Of a DNA stretch of 64,000 nucleotides, positions 34,397-58,169 are shown in pieces. The stretch covers positions 62,001-126,000 of the forward strand of contig JAKALA010000005.1 in NCBI GenBank assembly GCA_021813325.1, in the 5' to 3' direction. The DNA comes from a bacterium. GTDB lineage: Bacteria > Verrucomicrobiota > Verrucomicrobiia > Limisphaerales > UBA11358. The position numbers and the translations under genes are program-made. The notes under the pieces were generated by a model, which had not been told where the DNA came from, ran no database searches, and saw nothing but the letters and a program-made list of their open reading frames with translations. Numbering within the stretch: position 1 is the first letter of the stretch; every line of letters starts with the position of its first letter.

Positions 34397-37300
34397 TTAG
34401 TTTCCTGTTTGTCGAAATGGATCAACAGCGGCATGTTCATCCGGCCATACTGGTTGAACATCAAATAAGCCACCATCTCTTTGGGCAGGTGTATGGTGAA
34501 GTTCCATGCTTTCAACCTGGCCTGTTGTTGGGTTGATACGTTGGGGTGCCAGCCCCTGTTTCATGCGGTCTAAATTTGCATCACTATAATTTGCGGCGTT
34601 GTTTTGAGCCTCGTTTTTCCAATAGCGTGCGCGCACAGCATCCCACGATGGGACATTTCCTTTTGACGTAAGATTATTGATAGGATCGCCAGTTTTCCAG
34701 CCACGAGTTGCATTTGGTTTTGTCGGAACTGTTGGGCATGGAGTTGAACTGGGTTTTGTAGCAGGCACTGCACCATTCGCCGGAGGGCGTAGCCCAGCAG
34801 GTGATTTTCCAATAGGGGCTTTGGCCGATGGGACACCTTCTAATCCAGCAGCCAATACGCCAGCCGCTGTCGAAACATCCTGCGCCAAGCCAGCGGCATT
34901 TTCCCAAGATGGATCAGCCGAGAATGTTCCTGTGCCTTCGCCCAAATGTCCGATAGCTGCTGGTGTCGAAGCCAATCCATTGCCAAGGTCAATCGCCGTA
35001 TCAACTGCGGTGGCAACGGAAGGCGGCAGCGAATTATTAACGATGCCTTTCGCCTGCGACGCGCTGTTCGCTACATAATTCGCCAAATCGTCATACCAGA
35101 TGAACCCAAATGGATCAATGTAGAGCATCGGCGAATTGAGCGCATAGGCGTAAAGATTTACGCCGCCCAATTCTGCCAGCGGGTCGCGGTTGATGAATCG
35201 TTGAAGATTGGGGTCATAAAACCGTCCGCCAAAATAATAAAGACCTGACAGCGGCAAAAATTCTTTTGATGAGAAACGGTAGCGGTTCACGTCCGCATAA
35301 CCGCCCCACTTCCCGACGATATTTCCATAGGGGTCGTAAAGATAACGTGCTTCAAGTGTCTGGTATCTGTCAACCAGCATGGTGACATTGCCCAAAGCAT
35401 CGCTGTGATAATATACTGATCCCTTGATGTCTGTTCGCGCCAACAACCCGCCGATGCCACCCGCGTCCTCTAGCGTTCCGCTCAAATCCAGCCCCCGGTC
35501 ATAATACGCCACAACATTGTTGTTGGTGTCCCGTTCCTGAATCACCAATTTGCCGTCGTAAATATAATGCACTTCGCCCGTTAAAATCCATGAGCTATTC
35601 CAAGTGTAGTCGCGAGCAATGCGTCGCCGGCCAAGGCCGTCGTATGCGAAATCAGATTTTGACTGCCCCGGAATCGTGACGTTGACCAACTGATTTTCGT
35701 CGTCATAACTCAGAATTCGCAGCCCGTCATTGGTCAAATTGCCGTTGGCATCGTATTGATAGGTGACGGGTGTCGGCAGTTGGGAGACATTAACTTTGGT
35801 GATGCTATTGGATGGGAACTGCACGACTGTGGTAAACGTGTTTGCACCATTTGTCAGCGTTAATCCTGCCGTCGTTGCAAACGTCTTGTCATCGTAAAGA
35901 GCCGCATTCTGGCCATTCACCGTAACGCTGGTCACAGCCTGTGCCGTATTGCCCGCGACTGTCATCGTGCCAGAGCGGCTTGCATTGGTGATTTGATTAA
36001 CCGAGTTGGCGGTGAAACTTTGCGTCAACGTGTTATTTGTCCGCACCGATAGATTGCCTACCGCATCGTAAACGTAGCCAAACTGTTCATTCAAACGCAA
36101 GGTGCTGCCAGCCTCTCTCGCGCTGGCTGTTTTCAACTGACCAATGCTGTCGTAAGTGTAGGCAACTGTGCTGTTGTCGGTGCGTGTTTGCTGAATCCGG
36201 CGACTATCCGCGTCGAAAACATATTTTTGTGAATCCAGCGGAACGGAATTTGAATTTAGCAGCGTGGTGGCCGTCAATCTTCCGCCAATGTCGTAACCGT
36301 TCGTGATGGACATTCCATAGGGCAAGGTAAGCGTTTTAACCAGCGGCGAACTGAAGCTGCCGGAATTGTAAGTATAGCCAAACGATCCACTCGCGCCGAG
36401 CAAAGAATATAAACGGCGGGCAGCGTCAAAGCCATAGACCGTGGTTTGTGAGTTCAAGGTCAAGGTCGAGCGCAGCCGATTATTGTAAACGCGGGTTACG
36501 GTGTCATTAGGCCAAAGCCCACCTTCGCTTTGCAACTGGCTGGATGGCGTGTAGGAAAATACAGTTGTGCCGATGCCGTCCACCATATTTGTTAAGCGCC
36601 CATCGCTATCGTAAGTGAAGGTGATTTGCGGATTCACCGGATAAGTATTGGTGAGAACGCGCCCGACAGCATCACGCCAAAATGTCGTTGTGCCCTTTTC
36701 CGGCGTCCAGCGGGTCTTGATGCGGCCATTGGCATCATAGGTCAACTTCAATACCGACGCTTGGGTATTATCCAATTTATTTGTCAGGCGACCGAACAGG
36801 TCAAATTGGAAAGTGGTTTTTTGCGATTTTCCATCGGTAAGCGTGACTAGATTTCCGGAAGAATCATACTGGAATTGCGTCACCTCCTTGTTGGCATTGG
36901 TGCGAGAAGTGACGCGGCCAAGCACGTCATTTTGCAACAATGTCAAATTTGTGCGCAAGCCGTCTGCTACTTGCTTCAGTCCATTTGTGGAATAAACAAA
37001 GCTATTGGTCGCCACGCCGACAAGCACGTTGGTCAATACACGGTCAATCGCGTCATAACTTAACGTGGTGGTGACGCCGCGATTGTCGGTGATGGATTGC
37101 GGGCGGTCTAAAATATCGAAGCTATTGGAACGGATAACTCCGACAGAATTCGCAGATAAGGTGATAAATCCTTGCAGGTTAAAGCTGTTTGTGATGTAGC
37201 TGACAGCATCGGATGCTTTTACCAACTGGTCTATGGAATTGTAATTGTTTGTAACTGTATATCCGTCTGGATACTGGATGCTGGTCATTCGTCCAGCCAA

Positions 37301-40300
37301 ATCGTAATTGTAGTAAGTAAAATAACCCAACGGATCGCGCATCCAGTTCAACGCGCCACATGAACAGTATGAAGCCAGCGCCACTTCTTGGTTGGCATTG
37401 GTTACAGCCACAAGGTGCTGAAGCGCGTCGTAACCGTAATACGTCCAGTTGCCAAGTTTGTCGCGAGACGCAGACAAATCGAGTTTGGTATAGATATTGG
37501 AGACATAACCTTCGGAATCACTCTGCGAAACCATGCGATTCAATTTATCCCATGTGAATGTGGTCGTTAGGCCGCGTTCGTTTTGCCATGTAGCAATAAG
37601 GCCGTTGGTATAGGTAAATGAATTGGTGCGGCTGATTTGCAAATCAACAGTTTTTGTAAGAAAGCCGGTCGCGTCGTAAATGTTTGTTGTTGTCAATCCG
37701 GCTGGCGAACGAACGCTCGTAACCTGATTATTTCCGTTGCATGTGATGGTGGTAACGTAGCCAATCGCATTCGTAATCAGAGTTGCAATCGGAATGGTGA
37801 AAGTGTTGATTGTGCGTTGTTGCCAACTTACCTTTTGCCAGATATTTTCAAGCTGCCAAGCTGTGTATATGTGATTTGTGACCGTTTGACTAGACTGCGC
37901 ATATCCCCCATATCTGTTTGTTGCGCCAGATGCGTCAATGGAACTAATCAGAAGGCTGGCATAGGACACAGTTGAAGTGCTGTATAATGACAGCGACCAA
38001 GCCCCGCATAAATTTGAAGCGGACATGGAAACATTAAACCCAGGAACATAAGGCCCATTAACATTGTCCCCAGCACCATCATTAAGAATGCCTACATAGC
38101 TATAAGCAAAGCCGGGCGGGTAATTAACCAGAATATATGAAATTGTATTTGTCGCATAAACAAAAGTGTTTGTTCTTGTCCGTGCAACACCATCCGCCAG
38201 CGTGTAAGTCGAAATGTCCTTTGTTACAAATCCATCCGAGTTATACTGTTTCCAATCATATTCCGTGTTGCCAGATGGCTGCCGACGAGCAATAACAGCA
38301 ACCTGTGAATTTGTTCCTTGCAGATAGGAAAGGGTCTTGCCGTAATAATCGTAGAAAGTGAGTTGTCCTGCCGTCGTTCCGTCCGGTGATGGTTCTTGCT
38401 CAACGGAAAGCAACCCGCTTTGAGTAACATTGTTTTGATCGCCCAGCCAATGCTGGCGACGCGCCTTCATATAGTCAGTCGCCGTCAAGTTGGTTACAGT
38501 CAGCGTTGAAAGTGACTGGCATTGGCGAGCATCCCAATAATAGCTGTTGCGCCAAGTTGCGGCGGCGTAGTCGTGGCTGATCTCGTTCGTGCCAACATCA
38601 AGAGTTCCCAAAGGAGTTGATTGCGGTGTAAGATTGGACGGATATTGCTGATACGTCAGTTTCGTGGATGAATCAAAGCGGTAGAGGTAGATTTGATTTC
38701 CGCCCGTTGGATCGGTGACTGTCACCGCGCGGTTTACGCTATCGTGGCCGTCGAGGAACGCATCATTTGTGCTGCCAAAATCCCAATCGTAATAATTGAA
38801 AGTGGTCGTGCCATACGGCGTGTTCAAGGTTGACACGCGCCCGCTCGAATCCCAAACAAAACCGCTGCTGTTCGTGACTGCATCCGTGATATTCGTCAGG
38901 TTTCCAGAACTATCATAGGCAAATGTGGCGGTCTGGTTGTAAGGGGTGGTAACTTTTTGAATCAATCCCGAACTGCTTGAAAAATAAGTGAGCGAGTTGG
39001 TCTTGCCGTCGTAGTCAACAACTTGTTTCAGGCGGAATGCGCCATTGCCAAGTGAGTTGGTGTAAAAATCGTAATTAAAATAGGTGTCATTTCCAATCGG
39101 GTCAGTCCGTTGTGTCAGTATCGCCTCAACTTCATAAAATCCCGAAGTTGTATTTGCCCGCCAGTAAAGAAGTCCGTAGCGATCTACGCTGCCATCCGTG
39201 TGAAAAACACGAAAACCGCTGGCGGCATCATTCCAAGTCGTCATGCCGTATGCGCTCGAAGTTCCTGCCGGGGGCGTAGAATTCCAATCGGGTGCAACCC
39301 CAGTTCCGCCTGCGGGATAGCCGATGATGGGATATTGGGTTCCATCCGGCATGACGCCGTAAGCCGGTTGTAATGTGGTTTTCGTTTCCTCGTCGTATGA
39401 GGTATTTGAATTGGTCTTTGAATAATAGGTCACTTGCCCGCCGGTCGGCAGGTCAACCGTAGCCGTCCAGCTTGCAAAGGCATTGGTTTCGGCCACCGGC
39501 ACATTTGTTGTCGTCACCACATGGGTAATAGGATTGGTGACATATTGGGTCAGCGTCAAAGGCATCCCTTGAATAAAAATGCGCGAATACCAATTATGCA
39601 AAAGCCCTGGACGTGGATATGCAAATTGAACATTGGTGTTTTGGTTTCCTGCTGTATCGCGTTGTTTGATCGTGATGTGGAAAGCCATATCTTCTCCGCG
39701 CGACGTTTGATAACTAACTGGTTCATCCGCAAAAAACACATTGATGTAAGGTTCAGTTACCCACCATTGTGCCATTCCGTGACAAACCGGACATTTTCCA
39801 CCACAGCCTTTATCCTTTTTGTCGTCAATGCTGTAAATGTAGCTTCGTCCTAAAACTTTCGCGCATTCCTTGTCCGAGACAATCGGCCATGAGTCGGGCC
39901 GTTGGTCTGCTGGTATCAGAAAATAGCCGCTGGTCTCGCTGTCAATGTCCGGTGCGGACATCCAATTTGGTTCGCCAAAAATTACACGGTAAGCGCCGAC
40001 GCTCTGGTTGTAATCCATCAGCGCGCCGTAGTGGTTTTGCACCCAATGCACCACGCACGGCACAGGCAACGGCGTTCGGTCGGTGCGTTTCACCGCAACC
40101 ATGCCCAAATCATATTGACGGCTCAACTGCACGAGCCGCAGCAACGAGATGCCTTCCTTCGGCGACGGTTCTTCCACCAATGCGGCGATGGTGGAAGCGG
40201 GCTTGCCCTGCTTCCGCGCGATTTCCGCAAGAACCAACGTGCCGCAGCGATAATTTAGGCCCGGATTCTGGCGCATGGTGATGTAGCCCTCGCGCGCCGC

Positions 40301-40798
40301 CTCGATGCGCTGGCGATCTTCGGGACTGAACGAGCGGTCTTGCGCCGCCTTCAACAAATCATGCAGTGTCTCGACCCGGCCAAGGCTGGTCAGTAATTCA
40401 AGCTGGCCGGCGAGCGCATGATTGGCTTCGCCATACGACTCCGCATTAGTCGCCGATTTTAATTCCTGCCATGTCGTCGTCCAATCGGTTAAGGCCGGCG
40501 TGATGCGGCCGGATTGCCGGTAGCCGGATGCCAGCGTGTTTCGTAACTGCGGGGCGTAGATTGAATTCGGATTCGTGGCGACATATTGCTCCATCGCCCG
40601 CGTGTCGCCGACGATACCTTTCAACTCATCGGGAACATTCCGCGATAAATTATTCTGCCAGCCTGAACTTTGCGTTTGGGTGGCGGGAAACTGGCCGGAT
40701 GTCGGCAAAGGGTTCTGGTCAGCCGCTGCTTTGACAATCAAAAGCCCTGACAATAAAAAAAGTCCAAGTGAGTTTTTCATAGCTCTGATGCGATCCAT
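34397..40798 (-). CDS. RHS/YD-repeat polymorphic toxin with N-terminal papain/C39-like region and C-terminal HNH/Endo VII-type nuclease
   Basis: Many YD repeats; core end YRFSSKEFLPLSGLYYFGGRFYDPNLQRFINRDPLAELGGVNLYAYALNSP; C-term WDAVRARYWKNEA..RMKQGLAPQRINPTTGQVESMELHHTPAQRDGGLFD; N-term NYRCGTLVLAEIARKQ..HWVQNHYGALMD. Confidence 0.9.
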   Translation of the reverse strand: MDRIRAMKNSLGLFLLSGLLIVKAAADQNPLPTSGQFPATQTQSSGWQNNLSRNVPDELKGIVGDTRAMEQYVATNPNSIYAPQLRNTLASGYRQSGRITPALTDWTTTWQELKSATNAESYGEANHALAGQLELLTSLGRVETLHDLLKAAQDRSFSPEDRQRIEAAREGYITMRQNPGLNYRCGTLVLAEIARKQGKPASTIAALVEEPSPKEGISLLRLVQLSRQYDLGMVAVKRTDRTPLPVPCVVHWVQNHYGALMDYNQSVGAYRVIFGEPNWMSAPDIDSETSGYFLIPADQRPDSWPIVSDKECAKVLGRSYIYSIDDKKDKGCGGKCPVCHGMAQWWVTEPYINVFFADEPVSYQTSRGEDMAFHITIKQRDTAGNQNTNVQFAYPRPGLLHNWYSRIFIQGMPLTLTQYVTNPITHVVTTTNVPVAETNAFASWTATVDLPTGGQVTYYSKTNSNTSYDEETKTTLQPAYGVMPDGTQYPIIGYPAGGTGVAPDWNSTPPAGTSSAYGMTTWNDAASGFRVFHTDGSVDRYGLLYWRANTTSGFYEVEAILTQRTDPIGNDTYFNYDFYTNSLGNGAFRLKQVVDYDGKTNSLTYFSSSSGLIQKVTTPYNQTATFAYDSSGNLTNITDAVTNSSGFVWDSSGRVSTLNTPYGTTTFNYYDWDFGSTNDAFLDGHDSVNRAVTVTDPTGGNQIYLYRFDSSTKLTYQQYPSNLTPQSTPLGTLDVGTNEISHDYAAATWRNSYYWDARQCQSLSTLTVTNLTATDYMKARRQHWLGDQNNVTQSGLLSVEQEPSPDGTTAGQLTFYDYYGKTLSYLQGTNSQVAVIARRQPSGNTEYDWKQYNSDGFVTKDISTYTLADGVARTRTNTFVYATNTISYILVNYPPGFAYSYVGILNDGAGDNVNGPYVPGFNVSMSASNLCGAWSLSLYSTSTVSYASLLISSIDASGATNRYGGYAQSSQTVTNHIYTAWQLENIWQKVSWQQRTINTFTIPIATLITNAIGYVTTITCNGNNQVTSVRSPAGLTTTNIYDATGFLTKTVDLQISRTNSFTYTNGLIATWQNERGLTTTFTWDKLNRMVSQSDSEGYVSNIYTKLDLSASRDKLGNWTYYGYDALQHLVAVTNANQEVALASYCSCGALNWMRDPLGYFTYYNYDLAGRMTSIQYPDGYTVTNNYNSIDQLVKASDAVSYITNSFNLQGFITLSANSVGVIRSNSFDILDRPQSITDNRGVTTTLSYDAIDRVLTNVLVGVATNSFVYSTNGLKQVADGLRTNLTLLQNDVLGRVTSRTNANKEVTQFQYDSSGNLVTLTDGKSQKTTFQFDLFGRLTNKLDNTQASVLKLTYDANGRIKTRWTPEKGTTTFWRDAVGRVLTNTYPVNPQITFTYDSDGRLTNMVDGIGTTVFSYTPSSQLQSEGGLWPNDTVTRVYNNRLRSTLTLNSQTTVYGFDAARRLYSLLGASGSFGYTYNSGSFSSPLVKTLTLPYGMSITNGYDIGGRLTATTLLNSNSVPLDSQKYVFDADSRRIQQTRTDNSTVAYTYDSIGQLKTASAREAGSTLRLNEQFGYVYDAVGNLSVRTNNTLTQSFTANSVNQITNASRSGTMTVAGNTAQAVTSVTVNGQNAALYDDKTFATTAGLTLTNGANTFTTVVQFPSNSITKVNVSQLPTPVTYQYDANGNLTNDGLRILSYDDENQLVNVTIPGQSKSDFAYDGLGRRRIARDYTWNSSWILTGEVHYIYDGKLVIQERDTNNNVVAYYDRGLDLSGTLEDAGGIGGLLARTDIKGSVYYHSDALGNVTMLVDRYQTLEARYLYDPYGNIVGKWGGYADVNRYRFSSKEFLPLSGLYYFGGRFYDPNLQRFINRDPLAELGGVNLYAYALNSPMLYIDPFGFIWYDDLANYVANSASQAKGIVNNSLPPSVATAVDTAIDLGNGLASTPAAIGHLGEGTGTFSADPSWENAAGLAQDVSTAAGVLAAGLEGVPSAKAPIGKSPAGLRPPANGAVPATKPSSTPCPTVPTKPNATRGWKTGDPINNLTSKGNVPSWDAVRARYWKNEAQNNAANYSDANLDRMKQGLAPQRINPTTGQVESMELHHTPAQRDGGLFDVQPVWPDEHAAVDPFRQTGN

Positions 40799-45841: not shown

Positions 45842-45864
45842 GTTAGCGAGTAGTGGGCGGGTTA
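45842..45864 (-). promoter_or_regulatory. 21-bp motif copy 1 (upstream of TraK-like operon)
   Basis: gttagcgagtagtgggcgggtta; near-identical to copies at 47322 and 57966. Confidence 0.7.
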
Positions 45865-47342: not shown

Positions 47343-47376
47343 TGGGAGCAAGGCCGGTTGCTTTAAGCTGGTGTCC

Positions 47377-48036
47377 ATGCTTGCACCGAAAGCCCAATAC
47401 AACCCGGTTGACGCCAAAAGGTATTTCAAGGAACACCTGGCGGTGGGTGATTACTATGCCGAGGGGCAGACCGTCCCCGGCCAGTGGATCGGCCAGGGCG
47501 CGGCGGATTTGGGACTGTCTGGTGTGACAAGTGCCGATAAGTTTGTCCGACTCTGCGACAATCTGCACCCGCAAACCGGCGAACGGCACACCCTGCGGCA
47601 AAAGACGACCCGGATCGAAAAAGGGATTGATGGCGAAGAACGGCAGGCGGCCAATCGCCGGGTGTTTTACGATTTTACTTTCTCACCGCCGAAGTCGGTT
47701 TCCATCGCCGCGCTGGTTGGCAACGACGCGCGGATTATCGCGGCACATGAGCAGGCTGTAACGCTGGCCATGCACCAGTTGCAAACCTTTGCGGCAACAC
47801 GGGTGCGGAAAAACAATGAATGCACCGACCGGCCTACGGGCAACCTTGTGGCCGCGATGTTCCGCCATGACACCTCCCGCGCGTTAGATCCGCATCTGCA
47901 TACGCATTGCATCGTGTTCAACGCCACGTTTGACGCGGTGGAAAAGCAATGGAAGGCGTTGCAGAACCATGAAATGTTCGCCGCGCAAAAATTTGTCGAG
48001 AATGTTATTACCATGAACTCACGCGCGGACTGGTGA
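47377..48036 (+). pseudogene. MOBF (TrwC/TraI-type) relaxase, N-terminal relaxase part, terminated by apparent frameshift
   Basis: RVFYDFTFSPPKSVSIAAL and DPHLHTHCIVFN (HxHxH); frame breaks at about 48005. Confidence 0.85.
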
Positions 48037-50336
48037 AGTGCGGTTATCAGATTGAAAACCAGCCGCGCGGCGATTTTGAAATCAAGGGCGTCGCGCCGGA
48101 ACTGGTTGAAAAGTTTTCCAAGCGGCACCGGGAGATTGACCGGAAAACCAAGGAACTGCTGGCGCGTGAACCGGAAAAGGCGGGTGACAACATCGCCGCA
48201 ATCCGGGAAAACATCGCGCACAAGGAACGGCCACGGAAGATTCGGGACATCGGTTTGGAAAAACTGCAAACGCTGTGGGATGGTCAAATGACGGCGGGCG
48301 AAAAGGCTTCGCTGGATGGGCTGACGGCGAAGCCATCCGTTGCGCTCGTTGCCAGCGAGAAGGTTTGCGAGCAGGCCGTGACGTGGGCGGAGCAGCATTT
48401 GTTTGAACGCCGTTCCATCGTCCATGAGCATGAACTGTGGCGGCACGCGCTGGAACGCGCCCGGGGGCAGGACATTTCACTGGCCGACATTCAGGCGGTC
48501 ACCCAGCAGCGCGGTTATCTGCATTTTGACGAACATCCCGGCAAGGTGTCCACGCGGGAACATCTCGAACGCGAAATGGAAATTGTCCAGACGGCCAGAG
48601 CGGGCATTGGTGAATGCTATCCGCTGGTCTGGCAGCCAAAACCGTTTAATCCCATGCTGGATGAGGAGCAGCGTGAAGCATTGAACAAACTGGTTTCCAA
48701 TCGCAACCGGGTCGCGGTCTTTCGCGGCGGTGCGGGCACGGGCAAAAGTTTTGTGCTGCGCGAGCTGGTCGGGCAAATCCGCGACGGCGGGCGTGGCGTG
48801 GTCGTCCTCGCGCCGCAACGCCAGCAAGTGCTGGACATGGAGCGGGACGGTTTCCCGTCGCCGCAGACGGTCGCCAGCTTTCTGCAAAAGAAAGAACTCC
48901 AAGCGGGGACGGTGGTGATGGTGGATGAGGCCGGGCAGATTGGCGGCCAGCCGATGCTGGAACTGCTCCGGCTGGCGGCTGAACGCAATGCGCGGCTGGT
49001 TTTGTCGGGAGACACCCGCCAGCATGGAGCGGTCGAGGCGGGGGATGCGCTGCGGGCGATTGAAAAGCATTCCGGCGTCCGGCCAGTGGAATTGACCAAC
49101 ATCCGCCGCCAGAATCCGGCGCTGGCAAAGTCCATCGAGGAGCGCCAGCGGATCAAGGAATACCGGGAGGCGGTCGAGGCAGCGCGGGACGGCAGGTTCA
49201 CCGAATCGTTTGAACGGCTGGACAAGTTGAAAACGATTGAGTCCTGCACCCTGGCCGACAAGCATGAAAAGCTGACGGCGCGTTATCTGGAACTGGTGAA
49301 AGAGCGTCAAACCACCGTGGTCGTCTCGCAAAGCTGGAATGAGATTCACCAGGTCAACGCCGCGATTCGCGCCGCGCTAAAAAATGAAAAGCTCGTCGGC
49401 GATCTGGAAACCACGGTCACGGCTTTTCAGCCGGTGGATTTGACGGATGCGCAAAAGCGCGATGCCCGTTCCTATGATGCCAACACCGTGTTGGTGTTCA
49501 ATCGTGACGTGCGCGGGTTCAAGGCCGGTGAATCGGCGCGGTTGAAATTGATTACGGACACGCATTTGCTGGTGGAAACTGATAAACGCATTGTCCCCAT
49601 TCCATTCAAACAACTGGACAAGCTGACGGCCTGCCAGCGCAAGGAACTGGCTTTGGCCGCCGGCGACAAGCTGCAACTCAAGGCCAATGGCCGCAGCGTG
49701 GAAAACCGCAAGCTGGTCAACGGCGAACTGGTCACGGTCGAGGCCGTTGCGCCGGACGGCCGCATTGCGCTGGCGGATGGCCGGGTCTTGGATAATAACT
49801 TCCGCCAATTCGTCCGGGGCTATGCCATCACGTCCTATGCGTCACAGGGCAAGTCGGTGGAATACGTTCTATTTTCGGATTCAGCGGCGAAGGGTGCGAC
49901 GAACCAACAGCAATGGTATGTCACCATTTCGCGCGGCAAGAAGGGGATTCACATTTTCACCACGGACAAGGAGCAGTTGCGCGAGAACATCACGCGCAGC
50001 GGGGATCGCCCCTCCGTGGTGGATGCGCTGACAGCGCATTACCGGAAACATGATTCGTTCTATCGCCTGATTGAACAGCGTTGGGGGCCACGGGTGGCGC
50101 TCACCATGACCAACAGCAAACGTGCCAGACAGTTCCGGGAGATGCGCCAGAGGCAGAATCAAAGGCAGGCGCAAACTGAAACGGTCAAGCCGACGGTTGA
50201 ATCCCATGAGCCGCGCCAGCAACCCGTCCCGACACCGGTGCAAACCCAAGTGGCTGAAACGGCGGAGCCGAAAATCAAGCCGCACCGGATTTTCCCGGAA
50301 GCCCAGAAAAAGCAGTCGCGCGGTGTTGGCATTTGA
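48033..50336 (+). CDS. MOBF relaxase, C-terminal SF1 (TraI/RecD-like) helicase part, separated by the frameshift
   Basis: VFRGGAGTGKSFVLRELV, VVMVDEAGQIGG, LSGDTRQHGAVEAGDALRAI, GYAITSYASQGKS. Confidence 0.88.
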   Translation: MKCGYQIENQPRGDFEIKGVAPELVEKFSKRHREIDRKTKELLAREPEKAGDNIAAIRENIAHKERPRKIRDIGLEKLQTLWDGQMTAGEKASLDGLTAKPSVALVASEKVCEQAVTWAEQHLFERRSIVHEHELWRHALERARGQDISLADIQAVTQQRGYLHFDEHPGKVSTREHLEREMEIVQTARAGIGECYPLVWQPKPFNPMLDEEQREALNKLVSNRNRVAVFRGGAGTGKSFVLRELVGQIRDGGRGVVVLAPQRQQVLDMERDGFPSPQTVASFLQKKELQAGTVVMVDEAGQIGGQPMLELLRLAAERNARLVLSGDTRQHGAVEAGDALRAIEKHSGVRPVELTNIRRQNPALAKSIEERQRIKEYREAVEAARDGRFTESFERLDKLKTIESCTLADKHEKLTARYLELVKERQTTVVVSQSWNEIHQVNAAIRAALKNEKLVGDLETTVTAFQPVDLTDAQKRDARSYDANTVLVFNRDVRGFKAGESARLKLITDTHLLVETDKRIVPIPFKQLDKLTACQRKELALAAGDKLQLKANGRSVENRKLVNGELVTVEAVAPDGRIALADGRVLDNNFRQFVRGYAITSYASQGKSVEYVLFSDSAAKGATNQQQWYVTISRGKKGIHIFTTDKEQLRENITRSGDRPSVVDALTAHYRKHDSFYRLIEQRWGPRVALTMTNSKRARQFREMRQRQNQRQAQTETVKPTVESHEPRQQPVPTPVQTQVAETAEPKIKPHRIFPEAQKKQSRGVGI

Positions 50337-50386
50337 TATTTTTATTTCCCAGCCTGACGCAGAAATAACCAATCCCAATAGCGCCC

Positions 50387-50938
50387 TTATCCTTGAGATT
50401 CTTCCACGGCTTCAATCGTGAACATGAACCGGACAATTTCTTTAATCTTCGTCCGGCTGGGGCCGTTCAGACCATTCCCGTATCGTGAATCATAATTCTG
50501 GCAGTAATCTGCCGCCAGTTTGTAGCCGTCCGGCGGATAATCCGCGTGTCGGAGATAAATCGCCAGCGCGTGTTCCACCAGCATGAGATTCCAGTTGTGA
50601 ACGATACGCACCGGCCCCCATTGTTGATTCTGATATTCATTTTGAAAATCCCGCAAGCAGTCGTGCAACATTTCCGCCGCTTGGCGATTCAATTTCGGGC
50701 GGCATAAATCCGCGCCGGCCAGCAGCCTTTTGGCCGCGCGGAAAAGTTCAGCCGCTTTACCGCCGGCTTTGCCTTTGCGCGAGGTTGCGCGTGTCGCAAT
50801 CCAAACCGCAAACGCGGAAAGCCGCTCCGGTCTTTCAAACCATTTCTTCAACACCCCCAGTCTTGTCAGATTGGCGTTGCCGTTTTCAGCGATGTCGTCT
50901 GCGATTTGCAGGAGCTTTTCGGGAATGTTCGTCCGCAT
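50387..50938 (-). CDS. Hypothetical protein, last gene of the AbiE-TOTE operon
   Basis: 183-aa ORF, co-directional, 10 bp from upstream neighbour. Confidence 0.6.
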   Translation of the reverse strand: MRTNIPEKLLQIADDIAENGNANLTRLGVLKKWFERPERLSAFAVWIATRATSRKGKAGGKAAELFRAAKRLLAGADLCRPKLNRQAAEMLHDCLRDFQNEYQNQQWGPVRIVHNWNLMLVEHALAIYLRHADYPPDGYKLAADYCQNYDSRYGNGLNGPSRTKIKEIVRFMFTIEAVEESQG

Positions 50939-50948
50939 AAAATTTTCG

Positions 50949-51509
50949 TTATTTTGTCCGGCCTAATTTCTCTTCGAGACAGGACACCTGACCACACACG
51001 CTGTCGCCGTAGCCCCAGCCAATGCCATCGGCGAGAGTTGCCACCCGTTGAATCCGCGCCTGAAATCGAGGATAAAATTCATGGCCTTCGCGCAGAAGCC
51101 ATCGCGTCATTTCATTCAAAACTGATTCCAGGCTGTTATAAAAGGATTCGTTGATGTCACCAAACTCATGCGTGAACTCCGTGCCGTTTTCCACATAGGT
51201 CAGCATCAAATCAATCGTCCCTTCCAGATTGCCGGTGGCTTTGCGGTAATCGCGAATGGCCTTGCGAGCCTCGCCAAGTTTGAGTTTGCCATCGCCGCGC
51301 GCCGGGAAAAATTGTTCCACGATTTTGCGCCGATACTTTTCCAGTGCCACGCCGGCGTTTTCTTCCGCCTGAAAACGGGCTTGAAGAAAATCGCGGTTAT
51401 CCGGTGAAGCCCCGTAAAGGTCTTTCACCAGTGCAATCAACGCCGGTTTCGGCCAACCATTCAAGTGCCGGCGGACGCTCTGCCAGCCGGTGGATTTATT
51501 TTCGTTCAT
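50949..51509 (-). CDS. Hypothetical protein (start MNENKS likely)
   Basis: Co-directional ORF 8 bp after helicase stop; helical composition. Confidence 0.6.
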   Translation of the reverse strand: MNENKSTGWQSVRRHLNGWPKPALIALVKDLYGASPDNRDFLQARFQAEENAGVALEKYRRKIVEQFFPARGDGKLKLGEARKAIRDYRKATGNLEGTIDLMLTYVENGTEFTHEFGDINESFYNSLESVLNEMTRWLLREGHEFYPRFQARIQRVATLADGIGWGYGDSVCGQVSCLEEKLGRTK

Positions 51510-51516
51510 GTGAATT

Positions 51517-53919
51517 TCAAAAATCTTCGCCATCGTGAATTTCATAGCCTACCGCTTCATAGCCGCGCACCCGTTTTGAATACATTGCGGATAAAACCGG
51601 CACAGCCCCGTCCACATAATCATAAACGACGACTTCCCGTTTGTTGTCGTGCAGGCGGTGGAGACGGCCTACATATTGCTGCAACGTGCCGTGCCAGGAA
51701 ATCGGCATGGCCAGAAAGAGCGTGTCCAGACGCGCATCGTCAAATCCTTCGCCAATGTATCGGCCGGTCGCCAGCAGAACCCGCTCTTCGCCGGTGGGAA
51801 TTGCCGCCAACTGTTCGGCAATGGCACGGCGTTGTTTTGCCCCCATACCGCCTTTCAGGATGATGACATGCTTGACCAGCCCCGCAAGTCGTCCGGCAAA
51901 TTCGTCAATGTGGCTGGTGCGCTCAGTCAAAAGAATGGGCGAGCGCCCGGCCTTGACCGCGCGAACAAGGTCAACCGTGATCAAATCGTTGCGGGATTTG
52001 TCCGTCGCCAACGCCGCGTAAAGAACGTGCATTTCCGGCCTTTCGGGTGAGGACGGAAACCGGAAATTTGTCGGGCGTGGAACAACGATATGTTTGAACG
52101 GTCGCGCCTGCGCCTGTTCCTTTGCATTCACACGGTAACGAATCGGCCCGCATTGCATGACGATGATCGGATGATGTCCGTCCTTGCGCTGTGGCGTCGC
52201 GGTCAGGCCGGTGACGTAAGGTGCCTTCACCTGCCGCAACACTTGCTCAAAACTCACTGCCGACAAATGATGGCACTCGTCCACGATGACATGGCCATAG
52301 TTGGCAACCACGTCATCCACGACTTGTTTACGGTTCAGGCTTTGAATGACGGCAACATCAATGATTCCCGTGGCACGCTTCCGTCCGCCACCGATTTGCC
52401 CGATGCTTTTGATTGGCACGTTCAAAAATGTGGCCAGCCGTTCGCGCCACTGGTCTAAAAGTTGACGGCGATGAACCAGAACCAGCGTGTTGACATTCCT
52501 CGCGGCAATCAGCCAGGCAGCCACGACGGTTTTGCCAAAAGCAGTTGTCGCGCATAGGATGCCATCATCAAAACCGAGCATGGCATCGGCGGCGGTTTGT
52601 TGTTCTGGCCGAAGCTGGCCGTGAAATGTCACGCCAATCGGCTGACCGGCAAATCGCTGTTCGTCCAGATCAACCGCAATGCCATGTGACTTGAAAAGCG
52701 ATACAACTTCATCCAAGCAACCGCGCGGCAAGGCAATTTGCCGGGGAAATTCCTCGGCGCACCGAATGATGCGCGGCTTGCCAAACGTGGAAAGCCGCAT
52801 CGCCTGCGCGCGATAAAATTCCGGGTTTTGAAAGGCCGCCAGACGGTGCAGCCGGTTCAACATCGCCGATGGCAAGCCCTCCTTTTCAACATAGACGAGG
52901 TTGCTGCGGACAATTCGCACTTTTTCAGGCAGCGGGCCGACGATGGATTTGTCCTTTTTCTTCCGCGAAGGTGGCAGCGTCCACGGGTCTTCAGCCGCAT
53001 CTTCATCAGTCACGCTGCACCGGACACCGATAATCTCGCCGCTGTGTTCGGCGTCGCGCACAATGTTTTCCACTTCTGCCAGCGTCATTCGCCGAACGCC
53101 CGACAGAAATGCCCATTGATCTGTGTGTGGATTGAAATTGGAATCGAGAAAAACGCTGTTGCCGTGGCTGCGCGGCAGGTGTTGTAACGGCAGCGCAATG
53201 AGATTGCCAAAGCCGCCTTTCGGCATCGTGTCCTGACTCGGAAACAAACGGTCGTAGGAGTCAAGGCCGAGTTGATGTCGGCGTTCCATTGTCCGGGTGA
53301 GAATGGCCGCGCCCAATTTTCGCGCGAGACTGGCGGGCAACGGCATATCAAAGAAAATCCAGACGTGCCCGCCGCGTCCAGAGCGCGACCGTTCGAGAGT
53401 GGCGGAAATTTTCCAGTCAGCGCAGGTCTGAAGAACCGCGCGCACGTCATCCTGCCAGGTTGCCTTGTCGAAATCGGCGGCCAGAAACCAGCACGTTTCA
53501 TCTGTCAGCAGCGGATAAACCCCGGCCGTAATTTTACCGGTGAGATGGTCGTGAATGACTTGATCCGTCAGTGGAAAGTATTCCTTTGGCTCATCGGGTC
53601 TTTTCTGGAATGGACTGCTCCAAACTTTTCGACAAGCCGGAGAATAGCCGGTTTTCCCGTTTCGCCCATCCCACCGCACCGCATAAACATCCTCGCGTCC
53701 GCAAAACAGGCTGCGGAATAATTTTACTTTCTCCGCCGGGTTGGATTTGGAGCTGGTCGGCGCAATGGTAAAAGAAACCGCCGGCAAAATTGGCGGAACG
53801 ATATTTTCATTGCTGGGCAATCCCAAACGTTTCCGCAAATCGCGATTCTCCTCACGTAACCGTTCGCACTCCGCCAAGGCATCCGCAAGCCTGGCATTGG
53901 TCGTGGAGGATTCGTTCAT
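51517..53919 (-). CDS. TOTE-type archaeo-eukaryotic primase domain fused to SF2 DEAD/DEAH helicase
   Basis: LFCGREDVYAVRWDGRNGKTGYSPAC..YFPLTDQVIHDHLTGKITAGVYPLLTDETCWFLAADFDKATWQDD..LERSRSGRGGHVWIFF; helicase VIVDECHHLSAVSFEQVL, TATPQRKDGHHP. Confidence 0.85.
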   Translation of the reverse strand: MNESSTTNARLADALAECERLREENRDLRKRLGLPSNENIVPPILPAVSFTIAPTSSKSNPAEKVKLFRSLFCGREDVYAVRWDGRNGKTGYSPACRKVWSSPFQKRPDEPKEYFPLTDQVIHDHLTGKITAGVYPLLTDETCWFLAADFDKATWQDDVRAVLQTCADWKISATLERSRSGRGGHVWIFFDMPLPASLARKLGAAILTRTMERRHQLGLDSYDRLFPSQDTMPKGGFGNLIALPLQHLPRSHGNSVFLDSNFNPHTDQWAFLSGVRRMTLAEVENIVRDAEHSGEIIGVRCSVTDEDAAEDPWTLPPSRKKKDKSIVGPLPEKVRIVRSNLVYVEKEGLPSAMLNRLHRLAAFQNPEFYRAQAMRLSTFGKPRIIRCAEEFPRQIALPRGCLDEVVSLFKSHGIAVDLDEQRFAGQPIGVTFHGQLRPEQQTAADAMLGFDDGILCATTAFGKTVVAAWLIAARNVNTLVLVHRRQLLDQWRERLATFLNVPIKSIGQIGGGRKRATGIIDVAVIQSLNRKQVVDDVVANYGHVIVDECHHLSAVSFEQVLRQVKAPYVTGLTATPQRKDGHHPIIVMQCGPIRYRVNAKEQAQARPFKHIVVPRPTNFRFPSSPERPEMHVLYAALATDKSRNDLITVDLVRAVKAGRSPILLTERTSHIDEFAGRLAGLVKHVIILKGGMGAKQRRAIAEQLAAIPTGEERVLLATGRYIGEGFDDARLDTLFLAMPISWHGTLQQYVGRLHRLHDNKREVVVYDYVDGAVPVLSAMYSKRVRGYEAVGYEIHDGEDF

Positions 53920-53938
53920 ATTGATGTTGCGGTCGGCA

Positions 53939-54796
53939 TTACCGCCGCAACGCGCCGTAGAACTGCTGAACAGAATTGAAATGCGGATTGATGTCGGCAT
54001 CAATGCCGCATTCCTGCGCCAATTCCGCAAAGGGTGCTGACCACGAAGCCGGTGGCACGGCTAACTCGGTTGGAATTTCATGCGTCTTTCGCCGGTGAAA
54101 CGTATCACGAATCGTTTTTGGCAAACGGGCGATGTCCAGCTTTCCCTTTTCAATCAAAAGAACCAAGTCCACCAAATCTTTCACGCGGGAGTTCGGTCTG
54201 CCCACACGCGGCAAGGTGTAGGCGTGCAATTTTTCTGCGAATTGTTCCTCCTGCGAAATCGCCGGAACGCGAACGTGAGGCAGACCGGCAAAACCGAGCC
54301 AATCCCGGCCTTCCAGCATTTCGTAAGGTTCGCGCAGCACATCGCCAGCACTCACATCCAAGTGGAATTGAGCGAAGCGCCGTCCAGCCATTTGCGCGTC
54401 CACTGGAAAGCGCGCGCCGCCGTAAGGCGCGGCATCAAGGTCTAGCACCGGGCTGCCAATGGCGAATGTGAAACCATCATCCAGATTGACGGCGGCGGCC
54501 TGGCGCAACAAGCCGGTTATGGCTTTGGCATCCCATTCCGCTGGAATGGTGGGCGATTGCCGGAGTGCCAGATCAATATCCCGCGTGGTGCGCGCGGCCC
54601 GGATGCGGAGTTCCATCGCATAACCGCCCTTCAACAACCACGGCGATGTTTTACCTTGAAAAAGCCGGCACAGCAGCCGGTCAAAAGCGGCCTGCCGTCG
54701 GTATCGCTGAAGATCGCCGCCTTCTTTGGCGGCCAAGGCCAGCAGCCTGTCTTCAAGGGCGTGGCGGAGCGCTGCCGGAGTTTTGTAATGATTCAT
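53939..54796 (-). CDS. AbiEii-type nucleotidyltransferase toxin
   Basis: WLLKGGYAMELRIRAARTTRDIDLAL and ISQEEQFAEKLHAYTLPRVGRPNSRVKDLVDLVLL. Confidence 0.9.
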   Translation of the reverse strand: MNHYKTPAALRHALEDRLLALAAKEGGDLQRYRRQAAFDRLLCRLFQGKTSPWLLKGGYAMELRIRAARTTRDIDLALRQSPTIPAEWDAKAITGLLRQAAAVNLDDGFTFAIGSPVLDLDAAPYGGARFPVDAQMAGRRFAQFHLDVSAGDVLREPYEMLEGRDWLGFAGLPHVRVPAISQEEQFAEKLHAYTLPRVGRPNSRVKDLVDLVLLIEKGKLDIARLPKTIRDTFHRRKTHEIPTELAVPPASWSAPFAELAQECGIDADINPHFNSVQQFYGALRR

Positions 54797-55398
54797 TGGA
54801 ATAGTTTCTTGGCAATGTCCGCAAATTTCGGATTGGATTTTGCCGCCTTGATTTCACTTTCAAGAATCAGTCCCCGGCGGCTGGCATCTTTGGCTGCACG
54901 CCGGCATTCCGCCAGTGTAACGGGATTCTTGTGAACCACGTCACACAATGCGCGAGCTGGACGACAAATTTGCATCCCTCGCAAGACAGTGATTTCGGAG
55001 GGTGCGAGCGAGTCCCGATGAAGCGCCACCGCCTTCGGCGACGGGCTGTTTCGCCGAAATGCCACCGGCACGGTGATATGAACTTTCACCGGATTGAAAT
55101 CGCCAAGCTCAAAATAACTCAAGGCTGTCTCGTGCGAAAGGACTCCCAGCGGTTGGTCATTGCGTCCGCGTGTCCAGAGCAGAAACGCCGGCGTCAGTCC
55201 GTCCTCCGGTGGCGACAGATGTGCCAGGCGGTAAATGCCTCGTTGAATCCGCTCCCAGTTACCAACGCGAACATGGTAAGGATGTGTGTTGTCCGCGTAA
55301 CCAGCTTCGATAGCCTGCTTCGTGGTGAAATAACCCTGCTGCTCCTGCGCAACTTGTGTCAGCGCCTTGAAAGGGGCATTCTGCTGTCGTTTCGGCAT
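54793..55398 (-). CDS. AbiEi-type antitoxin
   Basis: GYFTTKQAIEAGYADNTHPYHVRVGNWERIQRGIYRLA..VLSHETALSYFELGD..RPARALCDV; ATGA overlap with AbiEii. Confidence 0.9.
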   Translation of the reverse strand: MPKRQQNAPFKALTQVAQEQQGYFTTKQAIEAGYADNTHPYHVRVGNWERIQRGIYRLAHLSPPEDGLTPAFLLWTRGRNDQPLGVLSHETALSYFELGDFNPVKVHITVPVAFRRNSPSPKAVALHRDSLAPSEITVLRGMQICRPARALCDVVHKNPVTLAECRRAAKDASRRGLILESEIKAAKSNPKFADIAKKLFQ

Positions 55399-55557
55399 GG
55401 CACGCATCCTCAACTTATTTGAGGATATATGCAAGTCGGAATTTCACCTTGCTGGATGTGCCTGCGTTCTCAAGATACGGCGCGCTATCCCGCGATTGCA
55501 TCTGCCGACGTTTGAAGATTGCCGAACTGGAATAGTCCAACTTAACCTTGGTTGAAA

Positions 55558-56550
55558 ATGATGGCCGACCCGACCAGACAAATGCCGCGCCGGTGGACGG
55601 CGGCGGAAGACCGATTGCTGGGCACAGCTTCGGATGCGCTCGTCGGCAAGAAAATTGGCCGCTCGAAAGGTTCGGTTTACCAACGGCGCAGAGTCCTGGG
55701 AATTCGTTGCGCCCTTCACGTTTGGACACCCGAAGATGACCGCATCTTGGGAACGGCTTCGGATGTGGAGATCGGTCGCCGCCTTGGCCGCACCCCAGCC
55801 TCGGTTTATCACCGGCGCAGAGCTTTGGGAATTACCGGTTTTCGCCCCCGTGTCTGGACGACGGAACAGGACAAATGGCTGGGCACCATTCCCGATTCGG
55901 AAATTGCCAGACGTGTCGGCTGCACCGAGGCTAACATTCGGGCAAGGCGCTTGCGATTGGGCATTGCCGCCACCCGTCACGTCAGACCGTGGACGGCGGC
56001 AGAGGACGCGCTGGTAGGAACCATGCCGGACAAGGAACTGGCGCAAAAATTAGGCCGGTCGGTCATCGCTGTGGCGCATCGCCGCGAACGGAAGGGCATT
56101 CACATTCCGTTTCACCCGAATCAAAAAGCATGGACTGCGGCGGAGGATGCGCTGCTGGGCACCATGATGGATCGGGAACTGGCGCAACGGTTGAACTGTC
56201 ACTACTACGTCGTGGCCTGGCGGCGAAGACAGCGCGGCATACCGCCGTTCAGGGGCAAACTGCGTGTCTGGACTCGTCAGGAGGAAGCCTTGTTGGGAAC
56301 CATGAACGACCGGCAACTGGCCAGGAAACTTCAGCGGACGGTCGTTTCGGTCACGGTGCGCCGCCATCGGAAAGGAATTCCGGTTTTCAAACGCAAAAGC
56401 CACGTCTGGAAACCGGAAGATGACCGGATTCTTGGCACCCGGCCTGACAGCCAGATTGCGCTCCTCCTCGGAATCAGCATATCAGCGGTGCGCCATCGGC
56501 GCAGCCGCTTGCGCATTCTTCGTAGAAAAAAACGCAATCAATCCTCATAA
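55558..56550 (+). CDS. Seven-repeat SANT/Myb-like HTH protein
   Basis: Seven tandem 43-47 aa units WTxxEDxLLGTxxDxELAxxLGRxxxxVxxRRxxxGI. Confidence 0.85.
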   Translation: MMADPTRQMPRRWTAAEDRLLGTASDALVGKKIGRSKGSVYQRRRVLGIRCALHVWTPEDDRILGTASDVEIGRRLGRTPASVYHRRRALGITGFRPRVWTTEQDKWLGTIPDSEIARRVGCTEANIRARRLRLGIAATRHVRPWTAAEDALVGTMPDKELAQKLGRSVIAVAHRRERKGIHIPFHPNQKAWTAAEDALLGTMMDRELAQRLNCHYYVVAWRRRQRGIPPFRGKLRVWTRQEEALLGTMNDRQLARKLQRTVVSVTVRRHRKGIPVFKRKSHVWKPEDDRILGTRPDSQIALLLGISISAVRHRRSRLRILRRKKRNQSS

Positions 56551-56855
56551 AATTCATCGTAATCCTCATGCGTGAATTGATGCGGCGGCGGAAATGGGTC
56601 GAACGTATCAGGCGGTGACGGCCAGGACGGCGGTGACTGTATTTCCACAAAGACGACGGGCGGCACATGAGTTCTTCTCTGCGGCGGCTTTCGCCGTTGG
56701 CCATGAAATACCAGCGCGATGAAGCCCGCAAGCAGAGCCATCGCCAAATAGATGACGGCGACGAAAACGCCCAGCTTATGCTGAGCGATAAATTCGTCCA
56801 GTTGTCCCAAGGCCGACACTTCCCATTCAAGTGCTTGGATTTGCCAGGATTGCAT
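56538..56855 (-). CDS. Small single-TM protein
   Basis: MQSWQIQALEWEVSALGQLDEFIAQHKLGVFVAVIYLAMALLAGFIALVFHGQRRKPPQRR. Confidence 0.6.
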   Translation of the reverse strand: MQSWQIQALEWEVSALGQLDEFIAQHKLGVFVAVIYLAMALLAGFIALVFHGQRRKPPQRRTHVPPVVFVEIQSPPSWPSPPDTFDPFPPPHQFTHEDYDEFYED

Positions 56856-56865
56856 GGTGGCCTCC

Positions 56866-57930
56866 TTATGCGGCAGCGGCGGTTGCCGCTGGTTCGGGGT
56901 TGCGGTTTCCAATGATGGCCTTCTGCTGCTTCTCGTATTCGCTCAAGGCTGGCATTTCCACCGGGGCGTTGCGCGAATAGGCGCGATGGACGGCCTTGCT
57001 GTTTTGGCCGATGTTCACCTGCGCATACCGTTCGGGATAACCGGCCGTCTTCGCCCGTTCCGCCCAAGCGTAACGGTAGCTGTGCAGCGACACGCCTTTG
57101 ATGCCGAGTCCGGTGCAGCGTTGCTTGAACTCCGTCGCGCGGTCGCCCGCGCGAACTGTCCGCAGATAGGGAAACAGCGGCCCATTGCCCGGCAGGTCGC
57201 GGAGCAATTCCGCCATTTCTTCATCGGGGCGCATGATCGCAACGCTTCCCGTTTTCATGCGCCGGTAGCTGATGACGTTATTATTCCAGTCAACATCCTC
57301 GGCTTGCAGGAACGCCAAGTCCGATTGCGACGCGCCCAAATACCACGCCAGTTTGTAGAACGCCTTGCGTTCGGGATTGTTTTCGCGTTCAACGATGGCC
57401 TGATGTTCGGCCAAAGTGATGGCGCGTTTCTCTTTGTATTCAACGGCGGGCCATTGGCGTTTCGGGACGAGCGGCCAAGGCAGCCAGTTCATGTCCACGC
57501 AAAAGTTATGCAGGCGGCGCAGATAGACATTGGTGGAAACTTTGCCGCATTGGAGGATGCGCAACAGGAGTTCGCCCTGGGTTTCAATGATGACCTTGGG
57601 CAGCAACGGGGCCAGCGCCTTGTCCTTGGCCACGCGCAACCAGCGTTCCTGGTTGGCTCCCTTCTTGGTGCCGGTGAGGGCTTCAATGGCGTTCTGCCAG
57701 GTGCGCGTTTTCATGCCGTCGTCCGAGCCGGCCAGATACGCCTTGGCGATTTGCAGGTTCAGGATGGGCTGGCGAACCGAATTGTTCTTGGCCTCGATGA
57801 TCTGTTGGGCTTCGTCCTCGTTGGTCGTGTGCAGGCTGGTCGGTTTGCCCGTGGTTTTGTCCACGGCATAATACATCCCGCCACGGCTGTTCCGGCGAAT
57901 TAAGCGATAACGTGTTTTCATAATGTTCAC
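56866..57930 (-). CDS. Tyrosine recombinase (integrase) of the element
   Basis: Adjacent to tRNA-Cys; C-term SLHSYRYAWAERAKTAGYPERYAQVNIGQNSKAVHRAYSR (HxxR...Y). Confidence 0.88.
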   Translation of the reverse strand: MNIMKTRYRLIRRNSRGGMYYAVDKTTGKPTSLHTTNEDEAQQIIEAKNNSVRQPILNLQIAKAYLAGSDDGMKTRTWQNAIEALTGTKKGANQERWLRVAKDKALAPLLPKVIIETQGELLLRILQCGKVSTNVYLRRLHNFCVDMNWLPWPLVPKRQWPAVEYKEKRAITLAEHQAIVERENNPERKAFYKLAWYLGASQSDLAFLQAEDVDWNNNVISYRRMKTGSVAIMRPDEEMAELLRDLPGNGPLFPYLRTVRAGDRATEFKQRCTGLGIKGVSLHSYRYAWAERAKTAGYPERYAQVNIGQNSKAVHRAYSRNAPVEMPALSEYEKQQKAIIGNRNPEPAATAAAA

Positions 57931-57965: not shown

Positions 57966-57988
57966 GTTAGCGAGTAGTCGGCGGGTTA
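57966..57988 (-). promoter_or_regulatory. 21-bp motif copy 3 (upstream of integrase)
   Basis: gttagcgagtagtcggcgggtta; one mismatch to copy 1. Confidence 0.7.
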
Positions 57989-58094: not shown

Positions 58095-58169
58095 TGGAGG
58101 CGGAGGTCGGAATCGAACCGACGGATGAGGCTTTTGCAGAGCCCTGCCTTACCACTTGGCTACCCCGCC
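58095..58169 (-). tRNA. tRNA-Cys (anticodon GCA), CCA encoded; integration target
   Basis: GGCGGGGTAGCCAAGTGGTAAGGCAGGGCTCTGCAAAAGCCTCATCCGTCGGTTCGATTCCGACCTCCGCCTCCA. Confidence 0.95.

Follow-up and report, generated by a model that had tools for sequence, protein, structure and literature searches.

Recurrent linkage of AbiE-type nucleotidyltransferase pairs to a PrimPol-helicase gene: a probable selected unit in the cargo of a Limisphaerales mobilizable element

Introduction

AbiE systems are well characterized. Published examples are bicistronic, confer phage resistance as well as plasmid stabilization, and are autorepressed by AbiEi through inverted repeats, while the AbiEii nucleotidyltransferase (NTase) is recognized by four motifs (hG[G/S], DhD with an Arg, a K motif, and +DxxD) (PMC3985639). 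Phage resistance, together with the ability of AbiEi to neutralize toxicity without forming a protein complex, marks AbiE as a type IV system. A related structure is that of the Mycobacterium tuberculosis toxin Rv1045 (PDB 6y5u), and we know of no link between Rv1045 and a PrimPol-helicase. TOTE systems have been defined by their TPR, OB, TBP, and Effector components (Aravind et al. 2022, cited through PMC12458937), and a further relative is the CRISPR-associated Prim-Pol, CAPP (PDB 7nqd).

Here we analyze a 64,000-nucleotide stretch of DNA (the window; GenBank assembly GCA_021813325.1, contig JAKALA010000005.1, positions 62,001 to 126,000) from a bacterium of the order Limisphaerales, phylum Verrucomicrobiota. 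A sequence-only reading of the window had proposed that an AbiE pair, a TOTE primase-helicase gene, and two genes for unknown proteins together make up one composite defense system. We asked how each of these parts compares with the described systems, and how often they occur together elsewhere. Loci used for comparison are referred to by L numbers.

Results

The five open reading frames are all intact and form one tight run on the minus strand, from 55398 down to 50387 (Table 1). The layout is as first read: the AbiEi and AbiEii genes share a 4-nt ATGA overlap, and the remaining junctions are gaps of 19 nt (AbiEii to TOTE), 7 nt (TOTE to ORF4), and 10 nt (ORF4 to ORF5). An alternative in-frame ATG at 51545 would make ORF4 overlap the TOTE gene. 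The identities proposed for the first three genes were also upheld, by both Pfam and PADLOC. Internal promoter-like sites showed no excess over chance within the run, and we infer that all five genes are co-transcribed.

Table 1. Features of the five-gene run and of the element that carries it (window coordinates).
Feature	Coordinates	Strand	Evidence or remark
AbiEi antitoxin/autorepressor, 201 aa	54793..55398	-	Pfam AbiEi_4 E=7.4e-9; PADLOC AbiEi E=3e-55
AbiEii nucleotidyltransferase (NTase) toxin, 285 aa	53939..54796	-	Pfam AbiEii E=1.3e-30; PADLOC AbiEii E=8e-92
PrimPol-helicase (TOTE), 800 aa	51517..53919	-	Pfam AEP-TOTE E=2e-91 plus ResIII/DEAD
ORF4, 186 aa	50949..51509	-	DUF6155 E=2.5e-4, under cut-off
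ORF5, 183 aa	50387..50938	-	no family match
Inverted repeat ATCCTCAA-N5-TTGAGGAT, proposed AbiEi operator	55406..55426	-	just 5' of AbiEi
MobF relaxase, split in two frames near 48033	47371..50336	+	TrwC E=2e-63; MobF E=8e-51
HTH-repeat gene, 332 aa, built of ~46-aa HTH-like units	55552..56550	+	Pfam HTH matches; repeats ~138 nt
Tyrosine recombinase	56866..57930	-	Pfam Phage_integrase E=1.7e-4, under cut-off; 96.8% identical in L330
tRNA-Cys, insertion site of the element family	58095..58169	-	ARAGORN

The first two genes resemble AbiE in family membership, in their overlapping order with the antitoxin gene directly upstream of the NTase gene, in the NTase motifs, and in the operator-like repeat upstream of AbiEi. 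All four motifs are present in AbiEii: GG at residues 57-58, RTTRDID at 69-75 (with D73 and D75), EKLHAY at 188 (K189), and KDLVD at 206. The protein also aligns with the Rv1045 toxin across residues 4-257 (E=9e-15), with the catalytic Asp and Lys positions kept. Unlike the bicistronic published systems, the pair is followed here by a co-directional PrimPol-helicase gene. With 8-bp arms that match perfectly around a 5-nt spacer, the repeat is the single operator-like site of the five-gene run. Its core with 6-bp arms is the sole match in the window at one mismatch or fewer (0.17 expected) and is also present in L164. Another AbiEi lineage has a different repeat, ATACAA-N5-TTGTAT, with the same 5-nt spacer, before AbiEi in six loci. 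Such a repeat fits AbiEi autorepression, although the geometry of one short palindrome differs from that of the published sites, which consist of two 11-bp arms 27 nt apart (PMC3985639).

The third protein combines an N-terminal AEP-TOTE domain (PF22548, aa 63-286) with a C-terminal XPB/RadD-like SF2 helicase; it matches both the CRISPR-associated Prim-Pol 7nqd (E=7e-17) and the XPBII helicase 6p4f (E=5e-21). Like CAPP, its AEP domain has aligned DxD and H motifs, and PADLOC picks up this part of the protein through its CRISPR-associated PrimPol model. Unlike CAPP, the locus has no CRISPR genes, and the XPB-like helicase lies within the same protein. Of 75 aligned TOTE proteins, almost every one keeps residues D149, D151, H185, D230, and K463, as well as the DECH motif. 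Because active-site residues are kept in both AbiEii and the TOTE protein, both enzymes look active. The earlier label of AEP-TOTE conflict system holds for the domain, here fused to a helicase, and fails for the partners: in the scanned genes, which run from mobF through the integrase, Pfam found no TPR, OB/cold-shock, or TBP domain. We therefore do not file the unit as a TOTE system as defined; in the loci studied here, the TOTE protein either accompanies an NTase pair or occurs by itself. TOTE PrimPol-helicases are common, with relatives of the window protein (E<=1e-100) in 66 of the 293 genomes of the order. To our knowledge, their role has so far gone untested.

The TOTE proteins of the order divide into a clade of ~800 aa (74-85% identical to the window protein; supported at 100 in a tree built from 75 TOTE proteins) and a longer group (mostly 930-1090 aa, about 51-61% identical). 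Loci were counted if they had 0.9 kb or more of DNA upstream of TOTE, and an NTase gene was scored as present when it lay within 150 nt upstream of TOTE. Such a gene was found, at distances of 4-138 nt, in 19 of the 23 ~800-aa-clade loci (the window included), compared to 3 of 51 other TOTE loci. The associated Fisher p of 5e-11 overstates the case, since the clade loci come mostly from one order and are related to each other, so that rows are not independent. Tight linkage, which had been taken as the signal of a composite system, thus goes beyond chance for AbiE and TOTE, whereas all five genes were found linked only here.

The NTase genes at these 19 loci are not all of one kind. Thirteen belong to the AbiEii lineage of the window, five are NTases accompanied by an AbiEi_2-like protein, and one is of a third type, matched by a profile that we built and by no Pfam family. 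In those of the five loci that were checked, the AbiEi_2-like protein (a sub-threshold AbiEi_2 match) precedes the NTase. Even sister TOTE proteins can have different pairs, as in L168, with AbiE, versus L169, with another NTase (support 86). The arrangement also appears with distant TOTE proteins: in L275 (52% identical to the window protein), TOTE follows AbiEi_3 (E=1.6e-42) and AbiEii (E=8.8e-35) genes after an 11-nt gap, and in L237 (39% identical) it overlaps the gene of an upstream NTase (AbiEii E=4.6e-5). At some loci, an NTase is kept beside a truncated or broken TOTE gene (L175, at a contig end, and L176). That one pair has given way to an unrelated one at the same position is an argument for selection on NTase and TOTE together, or failing that for some shared need. 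The link was not seen on any of the sequenced plasmids examined and may therefore be mostly a trait of this phylum.

Other neighbors of TOTE genes were also observed. In L062 (3317-6118), L167 (3137-6016), and L275 (near 51-395), TOTE is followed after 42-58 nt by a gene for an SNF2-family helicase, which may be a further part of the module. Some TOTE genes, located on plasmids and in one distant genome, lie near HipA or RelE/ParE toxin-antitoxin genes (L206, L296, L237, and L202); proximity to other toxin-antitoxin genes is possibly a general habit of TOTE.

The proposal that both unknown proteins belong to the unit fared less well. The five-gene order was found only in the window and nowhere else in anything searched. 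Across the 293 genomes of the order, ORF4 occurs in 11 and ORF5 in 13, the window genome included in each case, and TOTE was on the same contig in none of the 10 other ORF4 genomes and none of the 12 other ORF5 genomes; many of these assemblies are fragmented, and some of the absences could be contig breaks.

ORF4 does meet the helicase elsewhere. It is a distant relative of DUF6155 (PF19652) by profile and by tblastn, its profile score of 21.3 bits falling below the family's gathering cut-off of 27, and its relatives adjoin TOTE genes, upstream and overlapping, on plasmids of Azotobacter, Cupriavidus, and Massilia. Because the TOTE proteins on these three plasmids are closely related, the three cases may be one event. 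In L237, an ORF4 relative lies in divergent orientation close to the NTase and TOTE genes, and two others come after an NTase gene (L069 and L070). Judging from these neighborhoods, ORF4 is a plausible facultative partner of TOTE.

No such encounter was seen for ORF5. In a scan of one genome per species, we collected 56 ORF5 loci from other genomes, spanning several phyla, and none had TOTE or AbiE beside it within up to 10 kb on each side. ORF5 relatives do lie next to HsdS-like sequence in L079, L085-L088, L091, and L093. The five-gene run contains no restriction-modification genes, and the idea that ORF5 is a type I restriction-modification subunit was dropped, as many ORF5 loci show no restriction-modification genes. 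In four loci (L077, L078, L079, and L084, the last being the same contig as L015), an ORF4 relative lies upstream of ORF5. We regard ORF5 as a separate family and a probable passenger, and both ORF4 and ORF5 as looser passengers beside the three-gene core.

The ORF5 model is confident (pLDDT 92) and mostly helical, and Foldseek returned no match at E<=0.001 against the PDB and viral models; we discounted its weak profile matches to cytochromes and designed helical proteins as chance hits. The ORF4 model is all-helical and moderately reliable (mean pLDDT 68), with just three sequences usable; Foldseek gave no significant PDB match for it, and the model is too weak for this to carry weight. Neither ORF4 nor ORF5 was found in the viral contigs. 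By eye, a small LexA-like HTH gene lies beside ORF4 or ORF5 relatives in L079, L094, and L232.

A sister element without the run was found in a genome of the same genus. This element, L330, lies at tRNA-Cys and shares with the window its integrase, MobF (93-95% identical), and a ParA-like gene (85%); similarity between the two ends at the tRNA. In L330, 274 nt stand in place of window positions 50325-56807, and thus the five genes and the HTH-repeat gene form a cargo block. The five-gene run makes up most of this block, which occupies 6.2 kb between mobF and the integrase gene and is missing from L330; the HTH-repeat gene, likewise absent from the sister element, is divergent from the AbiEi run. 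Judged by its integrase, its relaxase, its tRNA site, and a sister without cargo, the carrier is an integrative mobilizable element, and the run is its cargo. The MobF frame is continuous in L330, L331, and L337 and broken in the window, which reflects either a real frameshift or an assembly error.

Two further features of the region were noted. A 23-bp direct repeat (45842-45864 and 57966-57988; 22 of 23 positions identical, 12.1 kb apart) has one copy beside the integrase gene and no exact match in the other loci or viral contigs. We considered these copies as att sites and dropped the idea, as similarity to L330 crosses the left copy and stops at the tRNA; a left end for the element was not located. 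To the left of the element genes, a 2133-aa ORF (34397-40798) has, by eye, an RHS/YD-repeat look.

Discussion

What remains of the proposed composite system, one not obvious from its parts, is an AbiE-type pair with TOTE, which recurs and in which the pair is exchanged; the five genes together do not. With moderate confidence, we conclude that the NTase toxin-antitoxin pair and the PrimPol-helicase are one selected unit, carried as element cargo and probably defensive. This reading draws on the gene layout, the active-site motifs, the operator-like repeat, the recurrence of NTase with TOTE, the exchange of pairs, and the cargo block; protection against phage or plasmids, and coupling between NTase and TOTE, are what we infer beyond these. 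AbiEi would repress the operon from the putative operator and antagonize AbiEii. The PrimPol-helicase would engage invading or replicating DNA by unwinding it, possibly with primer or DNA synthesis. AbiEii would be the growth-arrest arm, released either when TOTE is active or when TOTE is inhibited or lost, and its release would stop the growth of infected cells. ORF4 would be an optional helical accessory of TOTE and ORF5 a co-mobilized passenger. Against this reading stand the published AbiE systems, which work on their own, the many TOTE genes (most of them) that have no such partner, the plasmids examined, on which the link was not seen, the relatedness of the ~800-aa-clade loci, which come mostly from one order, and the loci that keep an NTase beside a truncated or broken TOTE gene.

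The main rival explanation, which we consider less likely, is addiction by proximity, in which the NTase pair would stabilize its neighbor post-segregationally, TOTE would act alone in defense or repair, and pairs would be interchangeable because any addiction module would serve. The stabilization of plasmids by AbiE (PMC3985639), the swapping of NTase pairs between TOTE relatives, the HipA and RelE/ParE genes near other TOTE genes, and the mobile element on which the window unit rides would all suit such a role. Addiction, however, requires neither a shared strand nor short gaps, nor would it favor NTase pairs over type II pairs upstream of TOTE, and within the flanking DNA covered, this integrase family or MobF accompanies just 5 of the 22 other ~800-aa-clade loci.

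It is quite improbable that TOTE instead serves the mobile element in replication or repair, with AbiE maintaining the element. AEP primases serve many mobile elements, an integrase lies near the module in L056, L164, L165, L167, and L173, and genes for AlpA and YfjI/DUF3987 are found close to the Escherichia coli homologues; a replication role is nevertheless unlikely because L330, though equipped with the same integrase, relaxase, and ParA-like gene, has no TOTE, and further because the helicase is XPB/RadD-like rather than of a usual replicative type and most TOTE loci show none of these mobile genes. That all five genes are one defense system, as first proposed, is very doubtful indeed, for although the tight spacing, the one operator-like site, the one cargo block, the DUF6155-TOTE adjacency on plasmids, and the ORF4-ORF5 pairs in four loci would fit it, the order is absent elsewhere, TOTE is missing from the contigs of all other ORF4 (0/10) and ORF5 (0/12) genomes, and 56 ORF5 loci stand without TOTE or AbiE.

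Returning to the selected NTase-TOTE unit, we tentatively suggest a more specific possibility, that it represents an undescribed class of defense in which a PrimPol-helicase would sense foreign DNA and interchangeable NTase pairs would supply its lethal or dormancy arm, DUF6155 or SNF2 proteins being optional add-ons. AbiE itself is an established system, and TOTE proteins have been predicted to be conflict proteins; our results point to a partnership of the two that is real but undescribed. We found no description of an AbiE-TOTE unit in a body of literature that leaves out most subscription journals, the titles and abstracts retrieved for AbiEii with primase or helicase were silent on one, and searches of the same literature for "AEP-TOTE," "TOTE conflict," and DUF6155 returned no papers.

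If the proposed unit is real, the helicase would be expected either to govern a growth-arrest enzyme of a known class or to be guarded by one. The swappable link between NTase and TOTE would offer a concrete handle on the role of TOTE, and one that needs just three genes. AbiE, for its part, would then be a plug-in module of a larger system, beyond the stand-alone pair.
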